Source: an uncultured Flavobacteriaceae bacterium (lineage in GTDB: Bacteria; Bacteroidota; Bacteroidia; Flavobacteriales; Flavobacteriaceae). Taken from it: a stretch of 64,000 nt of DNA. The stretch covers positions 569,319 to 633,318 of the forward strand of contig CANMWN010000001.1 in assembly GCA_947501625.1 (NCBI GenBank). Reading direction: 5' to 3'. The position numbers and the translations under genes are program-made. Under the pieces are notes generated by a model. The model was not told the DNA's origin, did not search any database, and saw only the letters and a program-made list of their open reading frames with translations. This document shows positions 1 to 7,093 of this stretch, piece by piece (positions within the stretch are counted from its first letter, which is position 1; each line of letters opens with the position of its first letter).

Positions 1-367
1 GAACAAAACTATAGCGCTTATCTTTTAAATATTTTCCTTTAACTAAATCTTTTAATACAGTGTCGTTTTCAATCTCAACAACTCCTATGATTGCTGGGCT
101 ATTATTTGCTTTTTCTAGACCTATTTTAGATAATACGCTTCCTAATTTATCAATTTTATCCCAATAAACTTTAGATCTATTCCCTTTTAATTCCATCATT
201 GGACTAGCCTCATCATTTTTAGCAGTATTATTAATAGTATCAAATAAGTTCTCTAAATTGTAAAAAGCCAAGGTTCTGATTTGATATTGTTTACTTTCTT
301 TTTGCTGAGAAAAAACTGTATTTCCAATTAAGAATATTGAAAAGAAAATAATTAAAAAGCGATTCAT
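1..367 (-). CDS. Endonuclease/exonuclease/phosphatase family protein, exported (3' end outside window)
   Basis: Reading leftward from the ATG at 365-367 gives about 122 residues that run off the window edge. The first 20 residues (basic start, hydrophobic core, ending VFSQ) look like a cleavable Sec signal peptide. The next stretch carries the family's opening strand with FYNLENLFDT, followed by GVVEIEN, which holds the metal-binding Glu of the EEP fold. The same motifs occur in the complete gene at 4809-5777, so the two are paralogs, but only this copy is visibly exported. Known for the family: Mg-dependent phosphodiesterases acting on nucleic acids, phosphoinositides or similar. The substrate cannot be told here. 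The C-terminal catalytic Asp/His residues lie outside the window. Confidence 0.85.
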   Translation of the reverse strand, partial: MNRFLIIFFSIFLIGNTVFSQQKESKQYQIRTLAFYNLENLFDTINNTAKNDEASPMMELKGNRSKVYWDKIDKLGSVLSKIGLEKANNSPAIIGVVEIENDTVLKDLVKGKYLKDKRYSFV

Positions 368-518
368 ATTTTATTGATTTATAACGTATCGCAAATTTAA
401 GTACAATATTTGAGCCAAAAAATATATTAACAGTTAAAATATGCTTGATATTAAATAATTAACATTGGCTAAACCTAAAAAACACAGTAAATTAACATTT
501 TTATGTTAGTTAAATTAG

Positions 519-526
519 TACTTTTG
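519..526 (+). promoter_or_regulatory. -7 promoter box for the TonB receptor operon
   Basis: TACTTTTG followed by C matches the Bacteroidota TAnnTTTG box. It lies about 40 nt before the ATG at 566, in the gap between divergent genes. No clear TTTG is present at the -33 position. Confidence 0.6.
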
Positions 527-565
527 CAAAGCGAAAAATTCGCCTATTAAACAATTAATTTAAAT

Positions 566-3361
566 ATGAAGAAAATTATTTTTACATTATTTTTTGTATT
601 TGCAATAAATATAATTGCCAATGCACAAGCTAATGTTAAAGGAAATGTTTCGGACAGTGATAGTTCAAGTCCAATAGTTGGAGTAACTATTACCGTTGAC
701 GGAACTACTATTAAACAAATCACAGATGAAAATGGAGATTTTGAATTAGTTTCTGTACCTGTAGGAGGTCAATTAGTAAAAATTGAATACTTAGGATACG
801 AAACTCAAAGTTTTCCCGTGACTGTGGTAGAGAATTCTACAATAGATTTAGGCTCAATTCTTTTATATAAAGATTTGAGTGTTCAAACAGATTTAAGTGT
901 TATCACGCTTACAGATGATGAATTAAATGAAGACGAAGGAGGAGCAGATAATACTGCAGGACTTTTACAGTCATCAAGAGATGTATTTTTAAATGCTGCA
1001 GCCTTTGAATTTAGTTCAACATTCTTTAGAGCAAGAGGTTACAATTCCGAAAATGGTAAACTCTTAATCAACGGTATTGAGATGAACAAAATCTTTAATG
1101 GAAGGCCTCAGTGGAGTAATTGGGGAGGTTTAAATGATGTAATGCGTAACCAAACTTTTACTAATGGTTTAGCCGCTTCAGAGCATACATTTGGTGACAT
1201 TGCTGGAGCAAACAACGTAACGATGCGTGCTTCAGAATATAGTGAAGGTGGTCGTGTATCTTATGCCGCAGCCAATAGAAGTTATTTAGGAAGAGTAATG
1301 GCAAGTTATTCTTCAGGGCTTAATGAAAATGGATGGGCTTATTCAGTATTATTTTCAAGACGCTATGGAAATGAAGGATATAACGATGGAACATTATATG
1401 ATGCTAATTCATTTTTTGGATCGGTAGAAAAAAAGATAAATGATAAACACAGTTTAAACTTAACTGCATTTTATACACCAAATAGAAGAGGTAAATCTTC
1501 ACCAAATACTCAAGAGGTATTTGATTTAGGTGGCAGAACATATAACTCTTATTGGGGATATCAAGATGGTGAAAAACGTAATTCTAGAATTCGTACTATT
1601 GAAGAGCCAGTTGTTATGTTAAATCACTATTGGGACATCAATGAAAAAACTACATTGAACACCAATTTTGCTTACCAATCTGGACAAGTAGGAAATAGTC
1701 GTTTAGATAACGGAGGAACTAGTCTTATTACTGATACTTCTGGAAATCAATATATTATTGGTGGTGGTTCTAATCCTGATCCAACATATTACCAAAAACT
1801 ACCAAGTTATTTCTTAAGAGATACTGATAATCCAGATTATATCAATGCATATTTAGCTGAAAACGAATTTGAAAACAACGGTCAAATTGACTGGGCTTCA
1901 TTATATCAAGCAAATATTAATAACGGAAACTCTGTTTATGCTTTATATGAAGATAGAAACGATGACACACAAATTACTGCAAATACTATTTTCAGAACAG
2001 AATTAAGCGACAATATCGACTTAAATGCTGCTGTGACTTACAGAAAGTTAAAATCTAAAAATTTTGCCAATATGCTTGACTTATTGGGAGGAAATGGATA
2101 CTTAAATGTTGATTCTTTTTCTGAAACTATTGACGAAGCACAAAATGATTTAAGAAACCCTAACAGATTGGTACAAGAAGGAGAAAAATATAGATATAAC
2201 TTTGAAATGGAAGCAAATGTTGTTGATGCCTTTGCTCAAGCACAGTTTAAATACAACAAAGTTGATTTTTATGTGGCGGGAAAAATTTCTCAAACTGATT
2301 ACCAAAGAAACGGATTGTATGAAAATGGTCGTTTCCCTGGAAGTCGTTCATTTGGAAAATCTGAGAAAGTAGATTTTACTAACTTTAGTGCTAAGGGAGG
2401 ATTGACTTATAAAATATCTGGTCGTCATTTAATAGATGTAAACGCAGGTTATTTAACTAAGGCTCCAACTATAAGAAATTCATTCTCTAATTCTAGAGAG
2501 AATAACGATATAGTTGTAGGCTTAACCGATGAAAAAGTAACCACTGCTGATATCAGTTATATCGTTAGAACGCCAAAAATAAAAGCACGTTTAACAGGTT
2601 ATTATACCAAGTTTGAAGATGCAACAGAAATTTCATTCTTTTATGCTGATGGAATTAGCGGAATAAGTGATACTGAAACTGCAGCATTTGTACAGGAAGT
2701 ACTAACAGGTGTTGACAAAAGAAATATTGGGTTGGAATTTGGAATGGAATATCAAATAACTCCAACCATAAAATTGAAAGGTGCTGCTGCTGTTGGAGAC
2801 TATATCTATGACAGCAATCCAAGTTTATATTTAGCATCAGATGATTTTGATGATAACATTGATTTTGGGCAATCAGCATTAAAAAATTATCATGTAGCAG
2901 GAGGACCACAAAGAGCTTATAATTTTGGATTTGAGTATCGTGATCCTGAATATTGGTGGTTTGGAGCAACAACAAACTATTTTTCTAATGGATATGTTGA
3001 TGTAGCACCAATTACTAGAACTAGTAACTTTAGTTCTGATCCTGTTGATGGACAAGTATTTAATGATTATGATCCAGTATTGGCAAGAGAGTTATTGGCA
3101 CAAGAAGAATTTGATGATTATTTCTTAGTAAATGCCATTGGAGGTAAATCTTGGAAAATTAACGACTACTATGTAGGATTTTTTGCTACTGTAAATAATA
3201 TTTTTAATACCAAATATAAAACTGGTGGCTTTGAACAATCAAGAAATGCAAACTTTAGAACCTTAAGAGACGATAAAGAACGTGACACTCCAGTATTTGG
3301 TTCAAAATATTGGTATGGATATGGAACTTCATATTACTTGAATGTATATTTCAGATTTTAA
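566..3361 (+). CDS. TonB-dependent receptor with N-terminal carboxypeptidase-like regulatory domain
   Basis: The 931-residue protein opens with a signal peptide (to about residue 20, ending ANAQ). A beta-sandwich regulatory domain follows (about 22-98; GVTITVDG, TDENGDFEL, YLGYET), then a plug region with FFRARGYNSENGKLLING, and a long beta-barrel rich in aromatic and Asn/Gly segments that ends in the outer-membrane-type terminus YFRF. Such proteins import large or scarce substrates across the outer membrane using TonB energy. The DUF5689 lipoprotein 39 nt downstream is probably its surface or periplasmic partner, and the pair forms an operon. No SusD homolog is present. EEP hydrolase genes on both sides hint at a nucleotide or phosphorylated substrate, but that is inference. 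The ATG at 566 directly precedes the signal peptide. Confidence 0.92.
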   Translation: MKKIIFTLFFVFAINIIANAQANVKGNVSDSDSSSPIVGVTITVDGTTIKQITDENGDFELVSVPVGGQLVKIEYLGYETQSFPVTVVENSTIDLGSILLYKDLSVQTDLSVITLTDDELNEDEGGADNTAGLLQSSRDVFLNAAAFEFSSTFFRARGYNSENGKLLINGIEMNKIFNGRPQWSNWGGLNDVMRNQTFTNGLAASEHTFGDIAGANNVTMRASEYSEGGRVSYAAANRSYLGRVMASYSSGLNENGWAYSVLFSRRYGNEGYNDGTLYDANSFFGSVEKKINDKHSLNLTAFYTPNRRGKSSPNTQEVFDLGGRTYNSYWGYQDGEKRNSRIRTIEEPVVMLNHYWDINEKTTLNTNFAYQSGQVGNSRLDNGGTSLITDTSGNQYIIGGGSNPDPTYYQKLPSYFLRDTDNPDYINAYLAENEFENNGQIDWASLYQANINNGNSVYALYEDRNDDTQITANTIFRTELSDNIDLNAAVTYRKLKSKNFANMLDLLGGNGYLNVDSFSETIDEAQNDLRNPNRLVQEGEKYRYNFEMEANVVDAFAQAQFKYNKVDFYVAGKISQTDYQRNGLYENGRFPGSRSFGKSEKVDFTNFSAKGGLTYKISGRHLIDVNAGYLTKAPTIRNSFSNSRENNDIVVGLTDEKVTTADISYIVRTPKIKARLTGYYTKFEDATEISFFYADGISGISDTETAAFVQEVLTGVDKRNIGLEFGMEYQITPTIKLKGAAAVGDYIYDSNPSLYLASDDFDDNIDFGQSALKNYHVAGGPQRAYNFGFEYRDPEYWWFGATTNYFSNGYVDVAPITRTSNFSSDPVDGQVFNDYDPVLARELLAQEEFDDYFLVNAIGGKSWKINDYYVGFFATVNNIFNTKYKTGGFEQSRNANFRTLRDDKERDTPVFGSKYWYGYGTSYYLNVYFRF

Positions 3362-3400
3362 TAACAGATAACAACACTAAAAAAATTAATAATAAACAAA

Positions 3401-4753
3401 ATGAAAGCAATTAAATTTTTACAACTATTAACACTTACGACACTTACATTAACTGTAGTATCGTGTGTTCAAGGAGATGAGTATGATGTTCCTCCTACTG
3501 CTGTGCAAGTTGAACCAAATGTAACTATAAACTCTTCTATCGAAGCGGTTAAAGAGGCATTTATTCAAAACTATGAAAACAATGACGAAGCCGTTTATAC
3601 ATTTGAAAACGATTTTGTTTTTGAAGGTTATGTAGTATCAAGTGATTATGGAGGTAACTTCTACAAATCATTAATTGTTCAAGATTCACCTGAAAATCCA
3701 ACACATGGTATCGAAATATTGGTAAACAAAACATCATTATTTGAAACCTACGAAGTTGGAAGAAAAGTATATGTACAATTAAACGGATTAAGTGTTACTT
3801 ACGAAGATGGTGTTTTTGACAATCCATTAAATTCTACACCTGGACGTTTCAGATTAGGTTATTTAGAAGGAAATGATGTTGATGATATTCCTACATTTTT
3901 ATTAGCCGATCATATTATGAGATCTACTGAAAGTGCTACAATAGTACCTAAAGTAATAACTACTGATGATTTTACTCAAAATAATGTGAATACTTTTGTA
4001 CAAGTTCAAAATATGCAATTTGCAATTAGTGAAATGGGTAAAACTTATGCTGGAGAAGGAAGTGATGAATTTGATGGGTTTAGAAATTTATTTAACTGTG
4101 CTGATGAGAGTGAGGCTATCTTACAAACAAGTACTTTTGCTGATTTTAAATCAGTAGTTATTCCTTCTGAAGTTGGAAATATTAATGCTGTTTTAGCTAA
4201 AGATTTCCGTGCAGATTTCTTTGTAATGATTATTAACGACCCAACAAACGTTGACTTTACAAGTACCGATAGATGTGATCCATTATTTAACGATGATTTC
4301 TCTTCAGGTATTGATGCTTGGACTGCTTATAGTGTAACTGGTGATCAAGAATGGTATTTCAATTCATTTGGTAATCCAGATAATAGTGCGACTATGTCAG
4401 GTTTTTCAGGAGGTTCAAACGAAAATGAAGACTGGTTAATCTCTCCAGCAATTGATTTATCTGGAGTTTCTAGTGCAGTATTCTCATTTGATAATGTGAA
4501 ACGTTATAACGGACCTGATATTGAAGTTTATATGGCAACTGATTATGCTGGAGGAGATCCAACTACAGATGGAACATGGATCGCTTTAAATCCTGCATTA
4601 GATTCTAATACAGGAAGTTGGTCATCTTGGGTAAACTCTGGACCATTAGATGTTTCTGCTGCTGCAGGAGGTAATTTATTTGTTGCTTTCAAATATACTT
4701 CTACAAACTCTAGTTCTTCAACTATCGAAATAGATAATGTAAGAGTTGAGTAA
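3401..4753 (+). CDS. DUF5689 lipoprotein with C-terminal choice-of-anchor J-like domain
   Basis: The 450-residue product starts with a lipoprotein signal (TVVSC, lipidated Cys22). The middle (about 40-290) resembles DUF5689, an OB-like domain often found in Bacteroidota lipoproteins next to TonB receptors: VFEGYVVSSD, QDSPENPTHGIEI and VYVQLNGL. The last 155 residues (from FNDDFSSGIDAW, with ENEDWLISPAIDLSG) look like the jelly-roll choice-of-anchor J module of secreted and adhesive proteins. The gene follows the receptor by 39 nt and is closed by a strong terminator. A role in binding ligand for the receptor is inferred from context; no enzymatic motif is visible. Confidence 0.85.
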   Translation: MKAIKFLQLLTLTTLTLTVVSCVQGDEYDVPPTAVQVEPNVTINSSIEAVKEAFIQNYENNDEAVYTFENDFVFEGYVVSSDYGGNFYKSLIVQDSPENPTHGIEILVNKTSLFETYEVGRKVYVQLNGLSVTYEDGVFDNPLNSTPGRFRLGYLEGNDVDDIPTFLLADHIMRSTESATIVPKVITTDDFTQNNVNTFVQVQNMQFAISEMGKTYAGEGSDEFDGFRNLFNCADESEAILQTSTFADFKSVVIPSEVGNINAVLAKDFRADFFVMIINDPTNVDFTSTDRCDPLFNDDFSSGIDAWTAYSVTGDQEWYFNSFGNPDNSATMSGFSGGSNENEDWLISPAIDLSGVSSAVFSFDNVKRYNGPDIEVYMATDYAGGDPTTDGTWIALNPALDSNTGSWSSWVNSGPLDVSAAAGGNLFVAFKYTSTNSSSSTIEIDNVRVE

Positions 4754-4774
4754 TCAGCCTTATTAATAAATCAT

Positions 4775-4806
4775 AAAAAAACCGAAGTTTCCACTTCGGT
4801 TTTTTT
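4775..4806. terminator. Bidirectional rho-independent terminator
   Basis: An 8-bp perfect stem (ACCGAAGT/ACTTCGGT, 4781-4788 and 4793-4800) with a TTCC loop is flanked by A6 and T6. It sits between convergent genes and can therefore end transcripts from either strand. Confidence 0.9.
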
Positions 4807-4808
4807 AT

Positions 4809-5777
4809 TTACTTTTTTTCTAAAAAAGAATACACTGGAAAATGATCACTATAACCACCTTGATACCATTTTCCAATATATGTTCTAAATGGTTTACCTT
4901 TATTTTTTCCCCTATATACTTTTAAAAATTCTTTATCAAATACCTCAGCAGATTTAAAACGGTGAGCGCCTTTTTGCTCTTTTAAAAAGTTTTTTGAATA
5001 TATTATTTGGTCAAAGAGATACCAATCTTCATTATGTTTTAAAGAACCCTCTCCTTTTGCTAAAAGACTTTGCATTGGGTTGTAAAAATCGTCTTGAATT
5101 AAATTTTGAATACTTTTATTTGTGGGATTGTCATTAAAATCTCCCATAATTATTATTTTGGCATCTTCATCCACCTCTCTCAAACTCCTAATAATTTTTC
5201 GGTTTAATTTTGAAGCCTCTAATCTTTTGTATTCCGATTCTTCAGTGCCTTTTCTTCGTGAAGGCCAATGATTTACAATTACTGAAATAAATTCGCCATT
5301 GAGATTTCCTTGCACTAATAACACGTCTCTAGTAAAATCTCGTTCTCCGTCAATATCATCAACATATAAAGGGAAAACTTCAGAGTTAAGTAATTCAAAA
5401 ACTTGTTTGTTATAAATTAGTCCAACATCTATTCCACGCTTGTCTGGCGAATCATAATGCACATAATCATAATGATGATTTTGCAACTTTTTAGAATAAA
5501 CTAAGTCGTTAATTACGTCCTTGTTTTCAACTTCAGCCACGCCAACTAAAACTGGAGGAAAATACGATCTTTCGATACCTATTTGCTCAATTACACTACT
5601 AATTTTTTTTATTTTCTTTTTATATCTTTTTAAGCGCCATTTTAGTTTTCCTTCTTCAGTAAAATCATCATCAAGTGTAGTTGGATCATCTACAGTATCA
5701 AAAAGGTTTTCTAAATTGTAAAATGCAATTGTAAAAGCATTCTTGTTTTTTCCTTTGGTTATAAAAAAGTTTGACAT
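4809..5777 (-). CDS. Endonuclease/exonuclease/phosphatase family protein, apparently cytoplasmic
   Basis: This 322-residue protein has the EEP motifs in order: FYNLENLFDT near the N-terminus, GVAEVENKDV (metal Glu), IVNHWPSRR (catalytic His), IIMGDFNDNPTN (Asp/Asn) and GGYSDHFPVY (final Asp-His pair). All catalytic residues expected of the fold are present. Unlike its paralog at the window start, it has no signal peptide. The ATG at 5775-5777 is preferred over the TTG one codon upstream. It converges on the DUF5689 gene across a shared terminator. Substrate unknown; a phosphodiesterase or nuclease activity is expected from the family. Confidence 0.88.
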   Translation of the reverse strand: MSNFFITKGKNKNAFTIAFYNLENLFDTVDDPTTLDDDFTEEGKLKWRLKRYKKKIKKISSVIEQIGIERSYFPPVLVGVAEVENKDVINDLVYSKKLQNHHYDYVHYDSPDKRGIDVGLIYNKQVFELLNSEVFPLYVDDIDGERDFTRDVLLVQGNLNGEFISVIVNHWPSRRKGTEESEYKRLEASKLNRKIIRSLREVDEDAKIIIMGDFNDNPTNKSIQNLIQDDFYNPMQSLLAKGEGSLKHNEDWYLFDQIIYSKNFLKEQKGAHRFKSAEVFDKEFLKVYRGKNKGKPFRTYIGKWYQGGYSDHFPVYSFLEKK

Positions 5778-5839
5778 CAAATTTATTTAAAGACCGAAAA
5801 TACAAAATATCATCTTAACTATACTGTTTAACTTATTTG

Positions 5840-5872: not shown

Positions 5873-7093
5873 ATGATTGATGAGAAAAAAGTTACTTCAG
5901 AGAAAGCAGTACTAATTGCTGTAATATCTCAGTATCAAAATGAAGAAAAAACGAAAGAGTATTTAGACGAATTAGAGTTTTTAACCTTAACTGCTGGTGG
6001 AATTACTACAAAACGTTTTACTCAAAAATTAGATAAACCAAACCCTAAAACATTCATTGGTGGCGGGAAGTTGGAAGATGTTCGAACTTATATTGAGCAA
6101 AATAATATAGGAACGGCGATCTTTGATGACGAACTTTCACCTGCTCAATTAAGAAATATTGAAAAAATTCTTGATTGTAAAATTTTAGATAGGACAAATT
6201 TAATCCTTGATATTTTTGCACAACGAGCACAAACTTCTTACGCTAGAACACAAGTAGAATTAGCGCAATGTCAATATCTTTTACCTCGATTAACTCGATT
6301 ATGGACACACTTGAGTCGTCAAAAAGGAGGTATTGGTATGCGTGGTCCTGGAGAAACAGAAATTGAGACGGATAGGCGTATTGTAAGAGATAAGATATCG
6401 TTGCTGAAAAAGAAGTTAGTCACGATAGACAAGCAAATGGCTATTCAACGAAAAAATCGTGGAAAAATGGTGCGTGTTGCTTTGGTAGGATATACCAATG
6501 TAGGAAAATCTACATTGATGAATGTAGTAAGTAAAAGTAATGTATTTGCTGAGAACAAACTATTTGCAACACTTGATACTACGGTTAGAAAAGTGGTAAT
6601 TAAAAACATTCCTTTTTTATTGACCGATACTGTTGGGTTTATTAGAAAATTACCTACACAACTAGTTGAATCATTTAAATCTACATTAGATGAAGTTCGC
6701 GAAGCAGATTTATTATTACATGTTGTAGATATTTCACACCCAAATTTTGAAGATCATATTACATCAGTAAATAAAATTTTAGGTGAAATTGAAAGTTTAA
6801 ATAAGCCTTCTATACTTGTTTTTAATAAAATAGATGCTTATACACATAAAACTATTGATAGTGATGATTTGGTTACCGAAAGAACTAAAGAACACTATAC
6901 ATTGGAGGATTGGAAGAATACATGGATGAATGAAATGGGTGAAAATAGTTTATTTATTTCGGCAATTGAAAAAGAAAATATGGAACAGTTTAGAAATAAA
7001 GTATTTGATGAAGTAAAGAAAATTCATATGCAACGTTTCCCTTACAATGACTATTTGTATTTTGAATATGACAAAGATGGAAATGAACTTTAA
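5873..7093 (+). CDS. hflX: GTPase HflX
   Basis: The 406-residue protein has the HflX N-terminal domain (FIGGGKLEDV near residue 62), a helical linker with GGIGMRGPGETEIETDRR, and a GTPase domain. The GTPase domain has G1 GYTNVGKST near residue 205, G3 DTVGF followed by IRKLP, and G4 FNKID. HflX binds the 50S subunit and splits stalled or stress-arrested ribosomes. The length is normal for the short bacterial form. It is transcribed alone from the TAnnTTTG box upstream and ends 3 nt from the converging lipoprotein gene. Confidence 0.97.
   Translation: MIDEKKVTSEKAVLIAVISQYQNEEKTKEYLDELEFLTLTAGGITTKRFTQKLDKPNPKTFIGGGKLEDVRTYIEQNNIGTAIFDDELSPAQLRNIEKILDCKILDRTNLILDIFAQRAQTSYARTQVELAQCQYLLPRLTRLWTHLSRQKGGIGMRGPGETEIETDRRIVRDKISLLKKKLVTIDKQMAIQRKNRGKMVRVALVGYTNVGKSTLMNVVSKSNVFAENKLFATLDTTVRKVVIKNIPFLLTDTVGFIRKLPTQLVESFKSTLDEVREADLLLHVVDISHPNFEDHITSVNKILGEIESLNKPSILVFNKIDAYTHKTIDSDDLVTERTKEHYTLEDWKNTWMNEMGENSLFISAIEKENMEQFRNKVFDEVKKIHMQRFPYNDYLYFEYDKDGNEL

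Follow-up and report, generated by a model that had tools for sequence, protein, structure and literature searches.

The window, a stretch of 64,000 nucleotides spanning bases 569319 to 633318 of contig C1 in the 2.66-Mb genome of an uncultured Flavobacteriaceae bacterium, begins with a divergent gene arrangement (Table 1). A gene for an exported EEP (nuclease/phosphatase) protein, EEP-A, is read to the left; a gene for an outer-membrane receptor is read to the right and is followed, directly downstream and after a gap of 39 bases, by a gene for a DUF5689 lipoprotein. A further EEP gene, EEP-B, lies to the right, and beyond it, at 5873, is a gene that we take from its own sequence to be hflX. 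The original prediction had placed two paralogous EEPs around the receptor and lipoprotein, one with a signal peptide and the other without. All four genes are present in that placement and the difference in signal peptides is confirmed, but the count of two was too low: a third EEP, a tandem copy of EEP-A, lies to the left of the window. The EEP-B gene extends to 5780; the end given earlier, 5777, is the next start codon. Between the divergent EEP-A and receptor genes, the sequence TACTTTTG fits the flavobacterial -7 box TAnnTTTG. Farther left (L002:5793-7401) are two tandem, near-alike exported proteins of about 240 residues each; the one at L002:5796-6503 matched nothing in Pfam or NCBIfam at E ≤ 0.1.

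Table 1. Features of the locus. Positions are those of the window, except that the prefix L002 marks positions in region L002, which extends to the left of it.
Feature	Position	Strand	Basis
Second EEP-A, 358 aa, signal peptide, tandem copy	L002:7497-8573, just left of window		flank reading
EEP-A, whole gene, remainder left of window; first 122 codons within window	L002:8634-9686		
EEP-A (PF19580), 350 aa, signal peptide	2-367, clipped at left window edge	-	ORF + Pfam
Divergent intergenic stretch, EEP-A/receptor, carrying TACTTTTG	368-565	.	by eye
Outer-membrane receptor, 931 aa: signal peptide, CarbopepD_reg N-terminal domain, plug, beta barrel	566-3361	+	
DUF5689 lipoprotein, surface candidate, 450 aa: lipobox, DUF5689 (44-282), choice-of-anchor J (296-449)	3401-4753	+	
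EEP-B (PF19580), 323 aa, no signal peptide	4809-5780	-	ORF + Pfam

The three EEPs are clear members of PF19580, Exo_endo_phos_3 (342.7, 337.5, and 359.2 bits against a Pfam cut-off of 27, the last two values being those of the pair in the window). Across 49 EEP sequences, N37, E98, H186, D228, N230, and D281 were invariant, and D338 and H339 were conserved in at least 90%; we take these positions to be the catalytic residues of the EEP fold. Matches to the ExeM/NucH family (NF033681) were weak (21.5, 27.7, and 38.6 bits, far under the cut-off of 300): the EEP catalytic domain is common to both, and the EEP here is a stand-alone domain. When solved structures were searched by sequence, single EEPs reached nothing below E 0.09 and an EEP profile reached only 9sf8/9sf9 (E 0.0031). 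Exported EEPs are mostly basic (median pI 8.9 across 72 EEP rows), as are the EEP-A copies at this locus (pI 9.3 and 9.4).

A tree of the 49 EEPs (those of the window organism's own family, 14 picked f5 loci, two others, and 16 further sequences, leaving out EEPs shorter than 300 residues from the 81 order-level loci described below and many f5 rows) separated the two kinds of EEP found in the window. With signal peptides assigned by a simple hydrophobicity rule, EEPs lacking one formed one side of a branch with support of 100/98, and EEPs that combine a signal peptide with linkage to the receptor formed a clade (support 99/96), which also included two displaced copies from Flavobacterium-like (g2) genomes and the EEPs of genomes G109 and G016. 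EEP-B belongs to a clade of older paralogues that lack a signal peptide. Among the tree's rows this form occurred in the window organism's own family only (7/7), and in 6 of the 7 it adjoined hflX. EEP-B is thus probably a neighbor of hflX rather than a part of the receptor module, and the pairing of an outside with an inside enzyme is probably a juxtaposition. The idea that the flanking EEPs form a functional pair, with the second enzyme acting inside the cell, accordingly did not hold: the clade of EEP-B and its usual place beside hflX speak against it as the inside half of a pathway. EEP_3 proteins also occur in families without a receptor orthologue; in several such genomes of family f7 (L214-L220), an exported EEP_3 adjoins a small lipoprotein gene to which no family was assigned. 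In genome G088, the EEP match (L059/G088:C1:3849992-3850813) holds one internal TAG, reflecting either a broken copy or a sequencing error.

The receptor matched CarbopepD_reg_2 (58.7 bits; Pfam cut-off 32.2), and its match to Plug, PF07715, fell under the cut-off (19.7 bits against 23.9). Its AlphaFold model (pLDDT 88.1) has the fold of a barrel with plug, and a Foldseek search with the model returned TonB-dependent transporters, the best being PqqU (9c4o, E 4.1e-31). The lipoprotein carries a lipobox cysteine and matched PF18942, DUF5689, at 168.6 bits (cut-off 28.6). At E ≤ 0.1, its matches in Pfam and NCBIfam were DUF5689 and choice-of-anchor J, with none to SusD families. It also matched the M949_1556 family lipoprotein model (NF052645) over its full length with 250.1 bits, under the cut-off of 475. 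In the lipoprotein model (pLDDT 90.0), the C-terminal domain is a jelly roll like those of gingipain adhesin, MAM, and Eph ligand-binding domains (best structural match Z 16.0 over 159 residues at 2.8 Å); a shared fold of this kind shows no function. Because the C-terminal domain filled the matches, the fold search barely probed the DUF5689 part, which, at a guess from the strand order in the model, may be a pair of OB folds. A lipoprotein profile searched by sequence against solved structures found nothing below E 0.5.

Linkage of the receptor to its two neighbors was followed through the order and the class. In 101 loci the lipoprotein lay just downstream of the receptor in 96, and an EEP gene lay within 1 kb of it in 79, divergent in 78. 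The original prediction had named rare adjacency in relatives as the outcome that would count against it; such rarity was not seen. The 81 order-level loci, from 42 genera, were those with a profile-orthologous receptor (L052 of G109, without an orthologue; L075, partial; L076 and L077, paralogues; and L117, of 10 bases, were left out); from f5, 39 further regions were drawn out of 114 matching genomes, with usually one or a few for each genus. Within four genes of the receptor, the lipoprotein was found in 40/42 genera and an EEP in 66/81 loci and 37/42 genera, whereas the next-commonest neighbor family besides the lipoprotein reached 28/81 loci and 10/42 genera. A divergent EEP was the immediate neighbor of the receptor in 65 of the 81, and the lipoprotein followed the receptor in 78 by gene order and 77 by distance. 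Outside the order, where 20 of 33 matching genomes were sampled, 19 of the 20 loci had the lipoprotein within 1 kb downstream, and an EEP was present within 1 kb in 14 and anywhere in the region in 17. The linkage of the three genes exceeds chance, and because it persists while other neighbors vary, the trio is old and retained.

The receptor itself is near-universal, rather than patchy, in families f1 and f5. In an order sample of 148 genomes, with orthologues counted as matches that cover nearly the full length and score 384 bits or more, it was present in 20/21 genomes of the window organism's own family and 19/19 of f5, and once each in f3 (of 1), f10 (of 1), and f2 (of 3); none of 20 f16 genomes (0.3-0.6 Mb) had it. 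At E ≤ 1e-100, it was found in 110 of 112 good f5 genomes, and receptor matches run through many families of the class. Of the 42 genomes with the receptor, 41 had a DUF5689 score exceeding 90 bits, and none of the 106 others had one exceeding 50 bits; the two genes are retained or lost jointly, G109 being without both.

Experimental context for this pair comes from Riemerella anatipestifer ATCC 11845, for which the available sections of one study (PMC8459023) report a transposon screen and markerless deletions that identified RA0C_RS04915 and RA0C_RS04920 as essential for natural transformation, with transformation below detection when either was deleted. There RA0C_RS04915 is described as receptor-like, with homologues reported in Flavobacteriaceae only, and RA0C_RS04920 as a protein with DUF5689 and choice-of-anchor J domains; ComEC, DprA, RecA, ComF, an HHH protein, and a DUF1343 protein complete the essential set. 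According to the parts available of a second study (PMC8383284), mutants in tonBA or tonBB were lowered in transformation, and only tonBB, not tonBA, impaired iron uptake.

The receptors of the window and of the R. anatipestifer-like genome G194 are reciprocal best hits (555 bits; the matches that follow score 124 and 100). The G194 receptor is 93% identical to that of a named R. anatipestifer locus (L118, the one examined in detail among 64 named loci retrieved), and both carry, in sequence, comEC, two genes, EEP, receptor, and lipoprotein. From this identity and gene order we infer that G194 probably carries RA0C_RS04915 itself, and through its reciprocal best hits the window receptor is orthologous to that gene. 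The order also matches the locus tags RS04895, RS04910, RS04915, and RS04920, which makes RA0C_RS04910 most likely the EEP; for this gene, the available text of published Riemerella work gives transcription measurements and no deletion. Identity to named R. anatipestifer CCUG25054 is 36% for the receptor, 28% for the lipoprotein, and 38% for the EEP.

The window thus shares with the RA0C_RS04915/RA0C_RS04920 system the same two-gene order, domains, and divergent EEP neighbor, as seen in L118 and G194. It differs in having two EEP-A copies and EEP-B and in the location of comEC, which in R. anatipestifer is three genes from the EEP neighbor of the receptor and in the window genome is about 498 kb away. 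A crude filter for comEC or recA beside the locus found none in the first 45 regions, but it missed the comEC of G194, which was found by reading. Searches of the window genome turned up comEC (C1:71497), dprA, a single NamZ (DUF1343) gene, and a two-HHH protein; most of the essential set therefore has a homologue there.

On balance we favor the full proposal that the locus supplies the outer-membrane part of a Riemerella-type DNA-import (natural-transformation) machine. Its parts differ in standing: a role of the receptor and lipoprotein in DNA import is likely, and EEP-A is a tentative candidate for a working part of it. The lipoprotein, on the cell surface above the receptor, would capture double-stranded DNA, and the receptor, a TonB-dependent-type barrel with plug, would pass it to the periplasm using TonB energy. 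Exported EEP-A would process the DNA, extracellularly or in the periplasm, either nicking it to provide ends or degrading one strand. HHH proteins would hold the DNA, ComEC would move one strand to the cytoplasm, and DprA and RecA would act there. The window organism may be transformable, with DNA passing through its receptor under TonB energy, its lipoprotein at the surface, and putative processing of the DNA by EEP-A.

The candidacy of EEP-A arises because two of the three trio genes have counterparts essential for transformation, so that the remaining one may encode the missing enzyme that cuts the DNA. EEP-A is exported and basic and retains the catalytic positions, which fits such a role. 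As a rule ComEC has a nuclease domain of lactamase type by which one strand is removed; the pneumococcal domain is inactive and EndA does the job (both from the available text of PMC12455585). In Riemerella, the sections at hand of PMC8459023 give the strand-removing step to an "unidentified protein." We found the domain (PF00753) in none of 31 scanned ComECs (the best 30 of 89 genomes with a match, plus that of G194) nor in that of the window genome, with E. coli YcaI as control matching at 2e-23. The domain is missing order-wide in the sample, families without the receptor included, and a tie between its loss and the trio was rejected since the two do not correlate. The proposed likeness to EndA of Streptococcus pneumoniae is that of a separate nuclease in a species with no active lactamase domain in its ComEC (PMC12455585, in part); the difference is that EEP-A has the EEP fold, not that of EndA, and that its nuclease role is putative. 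The receptor-lipoprotein pair and its role in Riemerella are already in print. The EEP as a conserved third member and its nuclease candidacy appear neither in the available sections of PMC8459023 nor in the literature found; a search that had subscription journals and preprints outside its scope returned no paper on EEP, natural transformation, and Bacteroidetes together. At stake are the outer-membrane passage of DNA and the strand-removing enzyme in the class, a question that one gene deletion makes directly testable.

Several observations count against DNA import, and they set the assessments given above for the pair and for EEP-A. F. johnsoniae, said to have all the homologues, was not transformable under the conditions tried (available parts of PMC8459023 and PMC7965970), and this, together with the low sequence identity of the lipoprotein, weighs against the reading. 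The lipoprotein is acidic (median pI 5.1, n=76; net charge -47 for the window copy), is poorly suited to charge-based DNA binding, and so also argues against it. For EEP-A in particular, the presence of EEP_3 in families lacking the receptor and the absence of the ComEC domain irrespective of the trio are unfavorable, as are three genomes: G087 has the receptor and lipoprotein, and its sole EEP_3 is of the type without signal peptide; G109 lacks receptor and lipoprotein and still has both EEP types, comEC, dprA, NamZ, and HHH; and G016 (345 kb), without matches to the receptor, DUF5689, or comEC, has an intact exported EEP-A (L227:7322-8458), so that in this reduced genome a role of the exported EEP_3 outside DNA uptake is likely. 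These same patterns (retention in G016 and G109, absence of the EEP-A form from G087) speak for EEP-A being an envelope housekeeping phosphodiesterase, active on lipids or nucleotides, whose only tie to an import pair is a common divergent promoter region, as does its displacement in most g2 genomes sampled (of the eight without an adjacent EEP, six had it 16-47 kb off on the same contig and two had it on a different contig). Adjacency in 79/101 loci from many families, while other neighbors change, counts against this; we regard housekeeping as a serious contender that falls short of probable.

Scavenging of phosphate or nucleosides, in which EEP-A would hydrolyze extracellular DNA, RNA, or phosphodiesters, the lipoprotein would bind and the receptor import the fragments, and Riemerella transformation would be a by-product, is closest to the original prediction of an exported hydrolase with an importing receptor. 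What survives of that prediction is a non-SusCD pair with a conserved exported EEP and, by homology, a nucleic-acid substrate; the inside enzyme does not. A conserved exported hydrolase beside a receptor-lipoprotein pair is what scavenging would look like, and the locus resembles SusCD systems and the Flavobacterium PUS in combining a TonB-type receptor, a lipoprotein, and a hydrolase (PMC8115612, in part). It differs from them in that the window lipoprotein has no SusD domain and the receptor is near-universal, and a near-universal single receptor in f1 and f5 is unlike a niche nutrient locus. The available text of the Flavobacterium phosphate-depletion study reports that a receptor with only PF13620, like that of the window, was induced by phosphate depletion in F. 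johnsoniae, but carries no PF18942, PF19580, or PF03372 label. A section heading (PMC7965970) has R. columbina transformation increasing under phosphate restriction, whereas the abstract of PMC8383284 has transformation of R. anatipestifer falling on phosphate removal; the effect as given in abstract and heading is thus opposite in the two species, which enters the objections to DNA import as well. We consider scavenging improbable. A still less probable reading makes the lipoprotein mainly a surface antigen or envelope factor, with an indirect transformation defect. In its favor, the NCBIfam family is named for M949_1556, a protein reported for antigenicity and attenuation (review, PMC12566107, in part), and the G194 lipoprotein passes that family's cut-off (599.3 against 475); against it, deletion of either receptor or lipoprotein abolishes transformation (available sections of PMC8459023), and the pair is retained or lost as a unit.

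Loci in families f8, f14, and f11 (L225:7365-13430, L223:6411-12457, and L228:3654-9591) encode an LTD protein, a receptor, and a DUF5689-region protein, and look like a distant version of the module. At these three loci the gene after the CarbopepD_reg/Plug receptor joins a DUF5689 region to PLD-type nuclease domains and a T9SS tail. The LTD domain, PF00932, was scanned in L228 only; the DUF5689-region protein of that locus gave no DUF5689 by hmmscan, yet 48.9 bits in another search. The joining of PLD and DUF5689 lends circumstantial support to nucleic acid as the matter handled. Speculatively, and on present evidence unlikely in its entirety, the trio would be a class-wide, pilus-independent DNA importer in which EEP-A stands in, EndA-like, for the lost ComEC nuclease domain, with the PLD-DUF5689 fusion doing likewise in distant families. 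The spread of the genes suggests that DNA import may extend through the class far beyond the few species in which transformation has been demonstrated.

In two Riemerella loci (L110:14191-19632 and L118:15664-19866), a Cas9 gene is found near the DNA-uptake genes, on opposite strands in the two; it is one frame of 1400 residues in L118 and two frames, of 1145 and 264 residues, in L110.
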